From Ignavibacteriales bacterium (GTDB taxonomy: Bacteria > Bacteroidota > Ignavibacteria > UBA10030), in assembly GCA_026390595.1 (NCBI GenBank), contig JAPLFQ010000020.1, positions 248,001-312,000 of the forward strand: 64,000 nucleotides of DNA, written 5' to 3'. A model generated the notes under the pieces. It had not been told where the DNA came from and searched no databases. It saw nothing but the letters and a program-made list of their open reading frames with translations. The translations under genes were made by a program, and so were the position numbers. Shown here in pieces: positions 60,014 to 63,003 of this stretch (positions are counted from its first letter, which is position 1; each line of letters opens with the position of its first letter).

Positions 60014-60167
60014 AGGGGTATTCCGCTGACGATGATGCTGAAACAGGGGTCCGGTTCACGCATGGACTAGCCGGCCGATGCATTCAGCGTGATGAGAGTA
60101 CGATGAACTGGCCTTCAATATAGAGGAAATTATGTTGAAACAAAAGAGCAGCCAACGCTGAGTACAC

Positions 60168-60196
60168 AAAAAAGGCGTCCCGGGAAAGGGACGCCT
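60168..60196 (-). terminator. Rho-independent terminator of the sigma/anti-sigma operon
   Basis: On the minus strand AGGCGTCCC pairs perfectly with GGGACGCCT around a six-base loop and runs into TTTTTT (60173-60168). It lies 28 bases after the stop of the anti-sigma gene at 60224, closing that operon ahead of the phosphoesterase gene. Confidence 0.85.
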
Positions 60197-60223
60197 GGGG
60201 ACACTCCGATGAGAAGACCAGCG

Positions 60224-60582
60224 CTACTGCCGAACCCGCATGAGCTTGCGCACCACGAAGCGATCGACAGCGACAAGAATGATCACGGAGAACATCGTCA
60301 GCACGATGATGTTCTCATTTTTCGGCGGCGGTTTCTTCGCCGGCTCACCGATGATGTGTGCCTGGCTCTTCACGATGAATTCTCTTGCTCGTGCGTAATA
60401 GTCCACGTACGTTTTGGCAGCATCAGAAAACATTGATGGACGTTTGACTTCGTCTGGCGGACTGCAACCTCCTGCCGGCATCGGGGGCATACCTCCAGGT
60501 GAGCGACGATCCTTGTCCTCGCCCCGTTTGCCAGAGTCTCGTCGACAATCTGAAAGATTTCACTGGTAGTAAGATGATTCAT
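60224..60582 (-). pseudogene. zf-HC2-type anti-sigma factor, frameshifted
   Basis: Two overlapping frames together make one membrane anti-sigma factor. From the ATG at 60582 the first frame gives LTTSEIFQIVDETLAN, then the zinc site HLEVCPRCRQEVAVRQ (His-x3-Cys-x2-Cys). It runs on into unlikely sequence and stops near 60370. The second frame, one base back, gives SMFSDAAKTYVDYYAR, then a single span (NIIVLTMFSVIILVAV) and basic tail ending at 60224. The shift is needed somewhere between about 60410 and 60470. The gene lies 7 bases after the sigma stop and before a strong terminator, the right place for a cognate anti-sigma. A one-base sequencing or assembly error is as likely as a true mutation. 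Confidence 0.72.
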
Positions 60583-60589
60583 AGAGACC

Positions 60590-61198
60590 TCACGTATTCT
60601 GCTCTTTTTCTTGGATACTGGCCGCTTTGACATTTGATCCGCTGAACTTCCTGACAACTCCGTCGCGCAGCATCACCCTTCCTCTGAAGAGCCGTACTTT
60701 CACGGTGCCGAGCGGCATGCCCGTCACCTCCACGATCTGGTCATAGCTCATGTCGTGCACAAAGAACAGCGTGCAGACTGCGCTGTAGAGCAAGGGAAGC
60801 TTCTCAATTTCGCCGAGGACAATCTGCTCGAATTCAATCGACTCGTATTGAATGTCAGGGGGCGCTTCATCTGAAGCGAGTTCGAGAGCGCCTTCATCAT
60901 CCCCGGCATCAATCGTGATGTGAGGATCTTCTCCTCTCCGGCTCAGCTTCGAGGCACAAACATTATAGACGATCCGATAGAACCAGGTGGAGAAGCTCGA
61001 CTTCCACTCGAACCGCGGCAACGCATTAAACGCCCGCACGAATGCGTCCTGTATAGCCTCTTCGGCATCCTCGCGATTCCTGAGCATGCGGATGGCCAGC
61101 GTCATCGCCTTGTCTTTGTGGCGATCGACCAAATCACCATATGCCCGCTTGTTCCCGGCGAGGATTTCCTTTATTATCGCAGTTTCAGTCTTGAGCAC
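60590..61198 (-). CDS. ECF-type RNA polymerase sigma factor
   Basis: A 202-residue group 4 sigma factor. Region 2 is KRAYGDLVDRHKDKAMTLAIRMLRNREDAEEAIQDAFVRAF followed by FSTWFYRIVYNVCASKLSRR, and region 4 is LPLLYSAVCTLFFVHDMSYDQIVEVTGMPLGTVKVRLFRGRVML with its helix-turn-helix. An acidic linker (DAGDDEGALELASDEAPPD) separates them. The first codon is GTG at 61198. It is followed by an anti-sigma gene 7 bases on. Just upstream, a promoter (TGAAAC-18-GTCAAA) faces this gene and its near twin faces the divergent gene at 61397, as expected for an autoregulated ECF factor. The stress signal cannot be read. Confidence 0.95.
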   Translation of the reverse strand: MLKTETAIIKEILAGNKRAYGDLVDRHKDKAMTLAIRMLRNREDAEEAIQDAFVRAFNALPRFEWKSSFSTWFYRIVYNVCASKLSRRGEDPHITIDAGDDEGALELASDEAPPDIQYESIEFEQIVLGEIEKLPLLYSAVCTLFFVHDMSYDQIVEVTGMPLGTVKVRLFRGRVMLRDGVVRKFSGSNVKAASIQEKEQNT

Positions 61199-61228
61199 GT
61201 GGCCCTGTGTTGTATGCCATACATCCCT

Positions 61229-61258
61229 TTTGACCTGGTTCGGGCCACCAGGGTTTCA
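61229..61258 (-). promoter_or_regulatory. ECF-type promoter of the sigma factor gene
   Basis: Minus strand TGAAAC (61258-61253), an 18-base spacer ending in CAG, then GTCAAA (61234-61229). The whole sequence is TCTGAAACCCT...CAGGTCAAAAGG, repeated almost exactly in the divergent direction at 61311-61344. The start would lie near 61222, about 24 bases before the GTG of the sigma gene. Confidence 0.7.
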
Positions 61259-61312
61259 GAAAACGACGTCTTCACGCATTTTCCTGAATGCCTCGCATTC
61301 TTCTTCCATCTC

Positions 61313-61342
61313 TGAAACCCTACGGCCTGATTACAGGTCAAA
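61313..61342 (+). promoter_or_regulatory. ECF-type promoter of the membrane protein at 61397
   Basis: Plus strand TGAAAC (61313-61318), 18-base spacer, GTCAAA (61337-61342). It shares TCTGAAACCCT and CAGGTCAAA with the sigma gene's own promoter, which creates an 11-base perfect inverted repeat (61250-61260 / 61311-61321). The start near 61349 leaves a leader of about 48 bases with a GGGAGGT ribosome site. Confidence 0.7.
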
Positions 61343-61396
61343 GGTAGTAAAGCCACCATCAAACGTCAATCCTACAAACTCAGTACGGGAGGTATC

Positions 61397-61753
61397 ATGA
61401 ACGGCGAATTCCTCATCCCAATTTTCCTCTTCGGCGGCACAGCCTGGGTGCTCACTGTGTATTTCAACAACCGAAACAAAGAACACATGGCGATGATTGA
61501 AAAAGGGGTCAATCCAATCGATTTCAAGGGCAAGCCAATGAAGGAGTGGTTTCAGACGAATCCCCTCACAAGCCTCAAGTGGGGCCTTCTCGCTGTTTTT
61601 GTCGGCATCGGTCTGATGGTCGGTATGTACCTCCACCGCAGTCTCGACATGGAAGATTCAGTGTACCTCGCGTGCATGCTCATCTCGGGAGGACTCGCAC
61701 TCGTCATCTTCTACTTTGTCGCTTCGATGAAGTCGAAGCAGGAACAGGTCTGA
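61397..61753 (+). CDS. DUF6249-type membrane protein, likely ECF regulon member
   Basis: A 118-residue protein with three spans: LIPIFLFGGTAWVLTVYFNN, a cytoplasmic stretch NRNKEHMAMIEKGVNPIDFKG, then LKWGLLAVFVGIGLMVGMYL and YLACMLISGGLALVIFYFVA. The RNKEHMAMIEKG phrase after the first span is typical of DUF6249-like proteins that commonly sit beside ECF sigma genes in this group of bacteria. It is transcribed divergently from the sigma factor from a promoter of matching sequence, so it is probably controlled by it. A GGGAGGT site precedes the ATG. Confidence 0.8.
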   Translation: MNGEFLIPIFLFGGTAWVLTVYFNNRNKEHMAMIEKGVNPIDFKGKPMKEWFQTNPLTSLKWGLLAVFVGIGLMVGMYLHRSLDMEDSVYLACMLISGGLALVIFYFVASMKSKQEQV

Positions 61754-61778
61754 ATCCTGCGCCGGAATGATGATTCTG

Positions 61779-61813
61779 AAAAAGGGTCGGGCATCGTGCA
61801 CGACCTTTTTTTT
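61779..61813 (+). terminator. Bidirectional-looking terminator after the membrane protein at 61397
   Basis: AAAAAGGGTCG (61779-61789) pairs with CGACCTTTTTT (61801-61811) around an 11-base loop and is followed by more T, with A-runs on the other strand. The gap 61754-62145 also holds a small hairpin TTATGC ... GCATAA (61990-62009) and A/T-rich sequence ahead of the next gene; nothing else is supportable, and a 66-codon minus-strand frame there looks spurious. Confidence 0.7.
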
Positions 61814-62145
61814 CCTGCTGCCTGTTGTAACTCCACTGCTTCTGACTCGTAATCCCACCGAATACACGTCACTCCGGCACTTTCATGGAATTTCTGCCAA
61901 GCACTCCAAGGGCTCAATAAGCTTGACCATGTGGCTTGTTTGAACCCCGCTTGTTACTCGATTTGATATTCCTGCAGGAAATCCCCATTTTATGCGTGTT
62001 CTTGCATAAGCGCTGATTCGTCTTTTTTTTTCTGGAGGTTTTTTCGATCTCTTTATTCAAAGAAAAAACACGATATTGAGTCCCCAGATCATGCCATTCG
62101 ATAACTAACAGCAATCATCCTACTCAATGTAGAGGGAGTACACTC

Positions 62146-63003
62146 ATGTCCCGTTTGATCACCAAATCGTTTTTCTATCTGCTCGTTTGCACAGCGCTCG
62201 TCTCTGTCGCGTTCGCAGGTGGCGAGAAGCTCAGATACAAGATGGCGAAAGGAACTACCCACGCCTATACGCTGACTTCCGACACCAAAACGAAAGCACA
62301 GATGATGGGTCAGGACATTACCACTTCGGCGTGGAGCATGTTCGGTGTTTCGATAACCGGCGAGAACGTTGGAGCGAACGGCGAGATGGTGTTGGTAGCC
62401 AAGGTTGATACCAATCTCTCGAAGATCGATTCTCCGATGATGAAAGACACTGCGCGTGTCATGAAGGAAATCAATGGGAAACGTGTCCGGTTGACGGTCA
62501 CCGCCATGGGAAAGACAGTGAAATCGGAAGCGATCGACAAGTTTGAGGCATCACAGCAGATGCAGATGATGGGTGGAGGGAGTCCTGCGGATTACATGCG
62601 TGGGCTCTTTGTGAAGTTCCCCGAACAAGCAGTGGGAGTAGGCGAAAGCTGGAAACAGACTACGCCGGACACCATGAATGCCCGGGGTTTCAACATAGTC
62701 GTGAAGCCTGATGTCACCTTCAAGATCGTGGCGGCCGAGAAATTCGGGGGATACGATTGTCTGAAGATCTCTTTCGAGGGACCGTCTTCTCAATACGGAA
62801 CCGGCTCGCAGGGGGGAATGGAACTCGTTATTGACGGTACGATCAAAGTCAAAGGGACTGCATACTTCGCTCCGAAAGAAGGACTCCTCGTCGGTGTTGA
62901 CCAAACAACAACCACCGACACGAACATCTCGGGCACCGGGGAGCAGATGTTCACTGCGGTCCAATCGTCGACAGCTGCGTCAAAAGTAACGCTTGTAAAG
63001 TAG
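62146..63003 (+). CDS. DUF6263-like secreted protein
   Basis: A 285-residue exported protein with signal peptide SFFYLLVCTALVSVAFAG. The mature part is mostly beta: KLRYKMAKGTTHAYTLTSDT at the start, methionine-rich MMGQDITTSAWSMFGVSI, VGVGESWKQTTPDTM, GTIKVKGTAYFAPKEGLLVG and a C-terminal threonine-rich strand. The order (Y-x-x-x-KG-x-x, internal WxxT, final GT.xFd...G.l...) suits DUF6263, common in FCB bacteria, of unknown role, perhaps lipid or polymer binding. AGAGGGAG lies before the ATG. Confidence 0.78.
   Translation: MSRLITKSFFYLLVCTALVSVAFAGGEKLRYKMAKGTTHAYTLTSDTKTKAQMMGQDITTSAWSMFGVSITGENVGANGEMVLVAKVDTNLSKIDSPMMKDTARVMKEINGKRVRLTVTAMGKTVKSEAIDKFEASQQMQMMGGGSPADYMRGLFVKFPEQAVGVGESWKQTTPDTMNARGFNIVVKPDVTFKIVAAEKFGGYDCLKISFEGPSSQYGTGSQGGMELVIDGTIKVKGTAYFAPKEGLLVGVDQTTTTDTNISGTGEQMFTAVQSSTAASKVTLVK

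Follow-up and report, generated by a model that had tools for sequence, protein, structure and literature searches.

Predicted back-to-back promoters of one ECF sigma factor between its own operon and a DUF6249 membrane protein gene in Ignavibacteriales

Introduction

In Bacillus subtilis, SigW recognizes promoters with the −35 element TGAAAC and controls a large regulon. The ECF sigma factor SigM of the same organism is encoded in one operon with the membrane anti-sigma factor YhdL and a second small membrane protein, YhdK, which makes it a precedent for a second membrane part in the restraint of a sigma factor. The general stress response of Alphaproteobacteria has many targets. It involves EcfG-NepR and the divergently encoded PhyR, a partner that is driven by the same ECF sigma factor, as described in the accessible part of PMC8103513. 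Autoregulation and promoters of the AAC/CGT type are given there as hallmarks of ECF sigma factors.

Here, we analysed a 64 kb stretch of DNA (64,000 nucleotides, termed the window) from an Ignavibacteriales bacterium, in which an ECF sigma factor gene stands divergently to a gene for a small membrane protein of the DUF6249 family (PF19762). Among open-licence papers none was found on PF19762 and none on a module of a sigma factor and DUF6249; the sole paper found that names DUF6249 counts it, in its accessible part, among the auxiliary domains of bean wall-associated kinase-like proteins. The parts of PMC12596196 and PMC9723704 that were available deal with other ECF sigma factors of the phylum and do not mention the sigma/DUF6249 pair. 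Since the EcfG/PhyR precedent exists and the open-licence papers yielded none on DUF6249 with a sigma factor, the locus represents a known architecture with an unstudied partner.

Results

Two divergent ECF-type motifs lie between the sigma and DUF6249 genes

A sequence-only reading of the window had proposed two nearly identical, divergent ECF promoters with TGAAAC and GTCAAA exactly 18 bases apart. This was borne out: TGAAAC-N18-GTCAAA is present in two copies, back to back, between the sigma gene and the DUF6249 gene (Table 1). From the end of the −10 element it is 30 bases to the GTG start codon on the sigma side and 54 bases to the ATG on the DUF6249 side, in agreement with the 24 and 48 bases that the reading had counted from the expected transcription start. 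When the spacer was allowed to vary (TGAAAC-N16..20-GTCAAA), the window contained two matches, both between these two genes; 100 shuffles of the window gave a mean of 0.03 matches, with one as the largest number and never two. Downstream of the DUF6249 gene, positions 62146-63003 encode a 285-aa protein that is probably secreted and has no Pfam match over cut-off.

The reading had also proposed a search of the whole genome for the motif, and here the outcome depends on how tightly the motif is defined. TGAAACCY-N16-GTCWAA has two exact matches in the genome, both at the sigma/DUF6249 locus; one mismatch adds five further matches, and the reversed control likewise gives five. The loose hexamer pattern is not unique, since the 4.77-Mb genome contains 10 matches compared to six for the reversed control.

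Table 1. Features of the sigma/DUF6249 locus (positions refer to the window).
Feature	Position	Strand	Evidence and details
ECF sigma factor gene, 202 aa, GTG start	60590..61198	-	Pfam and NCBIfam profile scores
Predicted autoregulatory promoter of the sigma operon	61229..61258	-	−35 TGAAAC 61258-61253; −10 GTCAAA 61234-61229; TGAAACCCTGGTGGCCCGAACCAGGTCAAA
Predicted DUF6249 promoter	61313..61342	+	−35 TGAAAC 61313-61318; −10 GTCAAA 61337-61342; TGAAACCCTACGGCCTGATTACAGGTCAAA
Conserved leader box of the DUF6249 transcript, TANNAAAG-N9-AACNTCAA	61345..61369	+	directly 3′ of the −10 element; column conservation
DUF6249 small membrane protein gene, 118 aa	61397..61753	+	PF19762 score, conserved columns, AlphaFold2 model
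Anti-sigma gene, N-terminal fragment; zf-HC2 zinc finger intact, then frameshift	60370..60582	-	zf-HC2 score; alignment with relatives
Anti-sigma gene, out-of-frame C-terminal part; second hydrophobic segment and DRFVVR tail	60224..60490	-	tblastn and DNA alignment with L012, L013, L015

The sigma factor is of the ECF type

Pfam identifies Sigma70_r2 (59.7 bits, residues 23-88) and Sigma70_r4_2 (42.8 bits, residues 127-176), both over cut-off, and no further domain over cut-off; the protein thus consists of sigma2 and sigma4 domains only, as in the ECF group (group IV). The NCBIfam model sigma70-ECF scores 83.3 bits (cut-off 42.9). The motifs have the features of ECF promoters as well: both copies show AAC in the −35 element (TGAAAC) and a −10 element of the CGT/GTC type (GTCAAA). 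The best equivalog is SigW, with 146.2 bits for NF007223 (cut-off 209) and 133.6 bits for TIGR02948 (cut-off 243.1). The protein is not SigW, since it scores below both cut-offs.

The anti-sigma gene is broken in the sequence of this genome

The gene that follows the sigma gene on the same strand codes for a protein of at least 120 amino acids with two hydrophobic segments in 66 of 71 divergent sigma/DUF6249 pairs from relatives (see below). Judged from this gene order, co-transcription of sigma and anti-sigma genes is likely. H-x3-C-x2-C is present in 30 of these 66 anti-sigma-like proteins, FTxxVM in its exact form in 27 and in a looser form in 61. The five exceptions are the window's own gene, L039, which is cut by the contig end, and L012, L020 and L032, where tblastn still detects the N-terminus of the anti-sigma factor. 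The zf-HC2 model scores 23.8 bits on the fragment from the window and is thereby over its cut-off of 22.2; two relatives stay below it (L013, 17.5; L119, 14.7) and L106 gives no match.

The window's anti-sigma gene had been described as frameshifted. The frame does shift, but the damage goes further: compared to relatives approximately 196 nt are missing near 60450. This loss takes out the middle of the protein with its first hydrophobic segment and puts the remainder out of frame. The gap is either a true deletion or a mis-assembly, so the sigma factor may be unrestrained in this genome. In the comparison with relatives, the broken gene is peculiar to this genome and lies outside the conserved design.

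DUF6249 is a small protein with three predicted helices

The divergently encoded protein matches DUF6249 with 65.2 bits (gathering cut-off 33). It is predicted to start with an N-terminal helix that runs into a charged RxKERMAMIEKG stretch, visible as conserved columns, followed by a two-helix hairpin. The AlphaFold2 model shows three long helices (mean pLDDT 70.4, pTM 0.37); the model is of moderate confidence and has no match among PDB folds at E≤0.001. There is no match in NCBIfam, Pfam finds neither a receiver nor a sigma-like domain in the protein, and the Pfam description of PF19762 records no function. In an evenly drawn sample of 198 genomes from the phylum (Bacteroidota), DUF6249 was found in 62, in 57 of them over the Pfam cut-off. 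Since three of 14 named control genomes match too (two over cut-off), the family also occurs outside the phylum.

The motif pair is conserved in relatives

Relatives with the same gene pair had been set beforehand as the place where the claim should fail if wrong, and the motif pair survives there. From 88 loci, 71 divergent pairs were obtained; L076-L094 and L096-L099 had been left out of the set, since their contigs match contigs of L012-L040 in length, and L199, which is among the 88, seems to repeat L100. Both motif copies are present in 69 of the 71 pairs compared to five of 1420 dinucleotide-shuffled regions, with a search pattern that was set after looking at the data. Counted per side, the sigma-side copy occurs in 69 pairs and the DUF6249-side copy in 70 of 71. 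The spacer is 18 bp long in 59 of 70 copies on the DUF6249 side and in 54 of 69 on the sigma side. One or both copies were missed by the script in L039 and L123, which entered neither the agreement counts nor the tree described below; on visual inspection, CAAAAC/CAGAAC-N18-GTCTAA stands on each side in L039, and L123 has a GGAAAC..GTCAA site on the sigma side. In the phylum sample, both copies were found in 23 of 25 divergent pairs, L265 and L279 being without one or both.

ECF-like hexamer pairs are short, and the 10 genome matches of the loose pattern against six in its control are what a mere chance resemblance would have in its favour. Such a coincidence has a negligible probability, since it is refuted by the conservation in relatives and the shuffled windows rarely contain even a single match.

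The inverted repeat is probably a by-product of the paired promoters

The locus contains a perfect 11-base inverted repeat, TCTGAAACCCT (61311-61321) and its inverse AGGGTTTCAGA (61250-61260), as the sequence-only reading had noticed. The repeat is indeed there, but a function of its own could not be upheld. In 27 Ignavibacteriales the shared part of the repeat is TGNAACCYT; the 12 columns upstream average less than 0.2 bits each, and the bases just upstream of the hexamers have 0.19 and 0.16 bits. The gap between the two −35 elements ranges from 4 to 606 bp in 69 pairs (median 37). With so variable a gap and hardly conserved flanking bases, the repeat was rejected as a functional element; from the alignments it looks like a by-product of the paired promoters. 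A perfect repeat of this length could also be the operator of a dimeric DNA-binding regulator or form an RNA hairpin, which we consider very improbable: in addition to the variable gap and the poorly conserved bases upstream, each half has its own −10 element at a nearly fixed spacing, and Rfam gave no match at the gathering threshold in 60100-62200. In L012 and L020, extra CCACGAAGACACAAAGACAC-type stretches that resemble a small repeat element lie between the promoters, and both motifs are intact.

The DUF6249 side carries a further conserved element, the leader TANNAAAG-N9-AACNTCAA. In the 27 relatives, the 16 columns after the −10 element have a mean of 0.95 bits on the DUF6249 side compared to 0.51 bits on the sigma side, and the next 24 columns 0.60 compared to 0.22 bits. 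A search for the exact leader pattern in 31 genomes (23 of them with DUF6249) gave 15 matches, 12 of which are at the locus; the reversed control gave 14.

Both copies share the same variants

Lineages differ at two positions of the motif: the third base of the −35 element (TGAAAC, TGTAAC or TGCAAC) and the first base of the −10 element (GTC or ATC). Within a genome the two copies agree: base 3 of the −35 element is the same in 67 of 69 pairs (10000 shuffles: mean 33, maximum 47), and all 69 pairs have matching copies at the first −10 base (shuffles: mean 58, maximum 67). In the phylum sample, which overlaps the earlier sets, the copies agree by reading in 22 of 23 pairs at the −35 base and in 23 of 23 at the −10 base. 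Such agreement is the expected trace of one sigma factor reading both sites. Six loci of the Cytophagales type (L118, L121, L125, L141, L143 and L108) have ATC instead of GTC in both −10 copies.

The variants are accompanied by changes in the sigma factor. Residue 164 is located at the start of the recognition helix of region 4.2 and aligns with the G before T-V-R in the corresponding helix of E. coli sigma-E. It is G in 25 of 26 sigma factors whose sites have A at the −35 position (the remaining one has P) and in all three with C; among the 40 with T it is A, S, N, T or E in 38 and G in two. In Ignavibacteriales the T-users have A (L016, L018) or S (L020, L022) at this residue. In region 2.4, residue 83 separates the two −10 types: all 63 sigma factors with GTC sites have S, T or N there, and all six with ATC sites have G, A or M. 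Most residue associations coincide with the division of the lineages into Ignavibacteria-type and others. On a tree from which the regions of these residues had been excluded, each motif copy and residue 164 change six times and the −10 base twice. This amounts to three independent contrasts for the switch to T at base 3 of the −35 element and two for the −10 base, with one supported in each case; since contrasts are so few, a sign test cannot reach 0.05. On the supported branches no pairing shows a disagreement between the two copies, and residue 164 follows them in about nine of ten.

The sigma factor and DUF6249 occur together

In addition, 61 genomes were searched (the own genome and members of its genus, family and order), with a close sigma defined by E≤1e-40. 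DUF6249 is present in 44 and a close sigma in 38 of these genomes. The close sigma adjoins DUF6249 in all 38 and is absent from all 17 genomes that lack DUF6249 (Fisher p 1.9e-10, without correction for shared descent). Six of the 44 genomes with DUF6249 lack a sigma at E≤1e-40: one of them, G036, carries a divergent but more distant sigma together with both motif copies (L280), a contig end cuts G056 (L039), and in G058 the sigma frame is split (L199). In L199 (G058:C181) and L100, apparently one contig, the sigma consists of two overlapping frames, a probable frameshift; two DUF6249-like frames are present, one of 74 codons directly divergent from the sigma and the full one approximately 2 kb further.

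The pairing extends beyond the order. Named genomes (Ignavibacteria-type MAGs, Cytophagales, Bacteroidales and Flavobacteriales) were scanned, and of the best 80 of 132 loci, 66 have a sigma gene divergent from DUF6249 within 1000 bp; of the other 14 in these best 80, six have a sigma on the same strand only, six yielded no sigma in the flanking DNA, some of them lying at contig ends, and two are arranged otherwise. The phylum sample, which overlaps the earlier locus sets, contributed 30 loci: 25 divergent within 900 bp, one at 925 bp that was left out of the motif scan, three on the same strand and one without sigma. An arrangement conserved in so many relatives suggests that DUF6249 belongs to the same circuit as the sigma factor.

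We also considered that the motifs are ECF promoters read by another ECF sigma factor of the genome, or by several. The genome contains 21 Sigma70_r2 loci, ECF sites look alike, GCAAC-type sites are located upstream of L219 and L223, and L214 has AGAAAC..GTCTAT inside its open frame; moreover, other envelope-type genes of relatives have a TGCAACCTTT site of similar kind upstream. We judge this to be improbable, because only the window's sigma among all these loci has a TGAAAC..GTC site upstream, the two copies share variants and track the residues of this sigma factor, and the close sigma without DUF6249 was found in none of the 61 genomes.

The conserved regulon appears to be confined to the locus

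The pattern TGNAACCY-N16-GTCWAA has 80 matches in the 61 genomes. The locus accounts for 48 of them, spread over 32 genomes, and a TGCAACCTTT class for 11; the remaining 21 equal in number the 21 matches of the reversed control. Thus, apart from the TGCAACCTTT class, the motif elsewhere is at background level, and the conserved regulon appears to comprise the sigma operon and DUF6249. No further conserved regulon was seen in the 61 genomes at this stringency, which weak or lineage-specific targets would escape.

The genes next to the 11 TGCAACCTTT-class sites are named here from a reading of their sequences and not by a family search; we take them to be MacA-like and DUF4097-like. Four sites stand before a MacA-like gene, two before a DUF4097-like and then a MacA-like gene, four before another DUF4097-like gene and one (L194) before something else. 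The MacA-like membrane fusion gene is preceded by TGCAACCTTT-N-GTCTAA in L205 (G000:C12, ~104180-104211), L186, L189 and L195, the latter with GTCAAA. In L187 and L188 the DUF4097-like gene lies between the site and the MacA-like gene, and in the order-level relatives L190-L193 a TGCAACCTTT-type site is found 38-45 bp before the different DUF4097-like gene. Of 30 MacA-like orthologs fetched, upstream DNA was placed for 24 and not for six. The strict motif is present in six of these 24, and 13 altogether have, by reading, an NGNAAC..GTC-like site at a plausible position.

In the five genus members with the MacA-like gene, the TGCAACCTTT site has C as its third base regardless of which variant, A or T, occurs in their own pair. 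Since it ignores the variant of the own pair, the TGCAACCTTT class is not counted as a target of this sigma factor. The MacA-like gene was set aside as a target of the window's sigma, another ECF sigma factor, for example that of L219 or L223, being as likely to read the site. Perhaps the TGCAACCTTT sites are the envelope-efflux regulon of another ECF sigma factor.

Discussion

It is highly probable that the two motifs are back-to-back promoters of one ECF sigma factor, which would drive the sigma/anti-sigma operon and, as a dedicated membrane output, DUF6249. We infer from the comparison of genomes that the motifs are active as promoters and that this sigma factor reads them; the promoter and co-regulation steps are well supported in this way. 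The sequence-only reading had made the membrane protein a regulon member and perhaps part of the signalling circuit. The first part is well supported by the paired copies and their shared variants; for the second, the linkage of the two genes holds, and how DUF6249 would take part in the circuit is a matter of the models that follow.

In the mechanism that we propose, the membrane-anchored anti-sigma factor would hold the sigma factor until an envelope signal frees it. Sigma and RNA polymerase would then start both divergent transcripts, and sigma and anti-sigma would rise together, a positive autoregulation with its own brake. DUF6249, as a small predicted three-helix protein of the inner membrane, would be made as the dedicated output. 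It probably acts at the membrane and might either relieve the stress or aid the anti-sigma factor in capturing the sigma again, which would close the loop. A dedicated output with feedback is the role that we favour for DUF6249.

Instead of being an output, DUF6249 might help to restrain the sigma factor as a second membrane component, namely a co-anti-sigma factor or sensor made in step with the sigma so that the restraint keeps up with it. Its adjacency to and co-occurrence with the sigma, the shared promoter type, the lack of another conserved target at the stringency used in the 61 genomes, and the small size of the protein with a charged stretch beside the first helix are consistent with this, and SigM with YhdL and YhdK is a precedent. 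On the other hand, an anti-sigma-like gene already follows the sigma in most pairs, DUF6249 has no link to anti-sigma folds, and its model, of moderate confidence, matches no fold. We therefore regard this role as possible but doubtful.

A broader proposal, which we regard as tentative, is that the sigma factor, the two-helix anti-sigma factor and DUF6249 form a nearly closed, phylum-wide module with only its own parts as conserved products. DUF6249 would then be a new kind of ECF partner (membrane sensor, co-anti-sigma factor or membrane-repair effector), and in Ignavibacteriales the leader, an element that occurs mainly there, may add a second layer of control.

Tying DUF6249 to one ECF sigma factor and a promoter provides the family with a regulator, a likely setting (the membrane and a stress response) and a direct test. 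In addition, twin promoters that share their variants are a natural record of shifts in ECF promoter preference, with residue 164 as the candidate residue. The divergent, self-controlled design is already known; the locus is therefore a solid advance in annotation and not a new principle.

The likeness to EcfG-NepR/PhyR lies in the architecture: sigma and anti-sigma in one operon, a divergent partner and both units with promoters of that sigma, as far as the accessible part of PMC8103513 describes it, the promoters here being predicted ones. The partner differs, since it is a small membrane protein here and shows none of the receiver domain of an anti-anti-sigma factor; in addition, no conserved target beyond the locus was seen, and the best equivalog of the sigma is SigW. 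SigW of B. subtilis is also the best match to the window's sigma among solved structures (PDB 5wuq), and the two have in common GTVK at the start of the recognition helix and TGAAAC as −35 element. In contrast to SigW, the −10 element here is GTCAAA at a spacing of 18 bp, and the protein stays below the SigW cut-offs. With SigM-YhdL-YhdK the locus shares an ECF sigma factor with a membrane anti-sigma factor and a second small membrane protein, but this second membrane protein is encoded divergently here and belongs to DUF6249, whereas all three genes form a single operon in B. subtilis.
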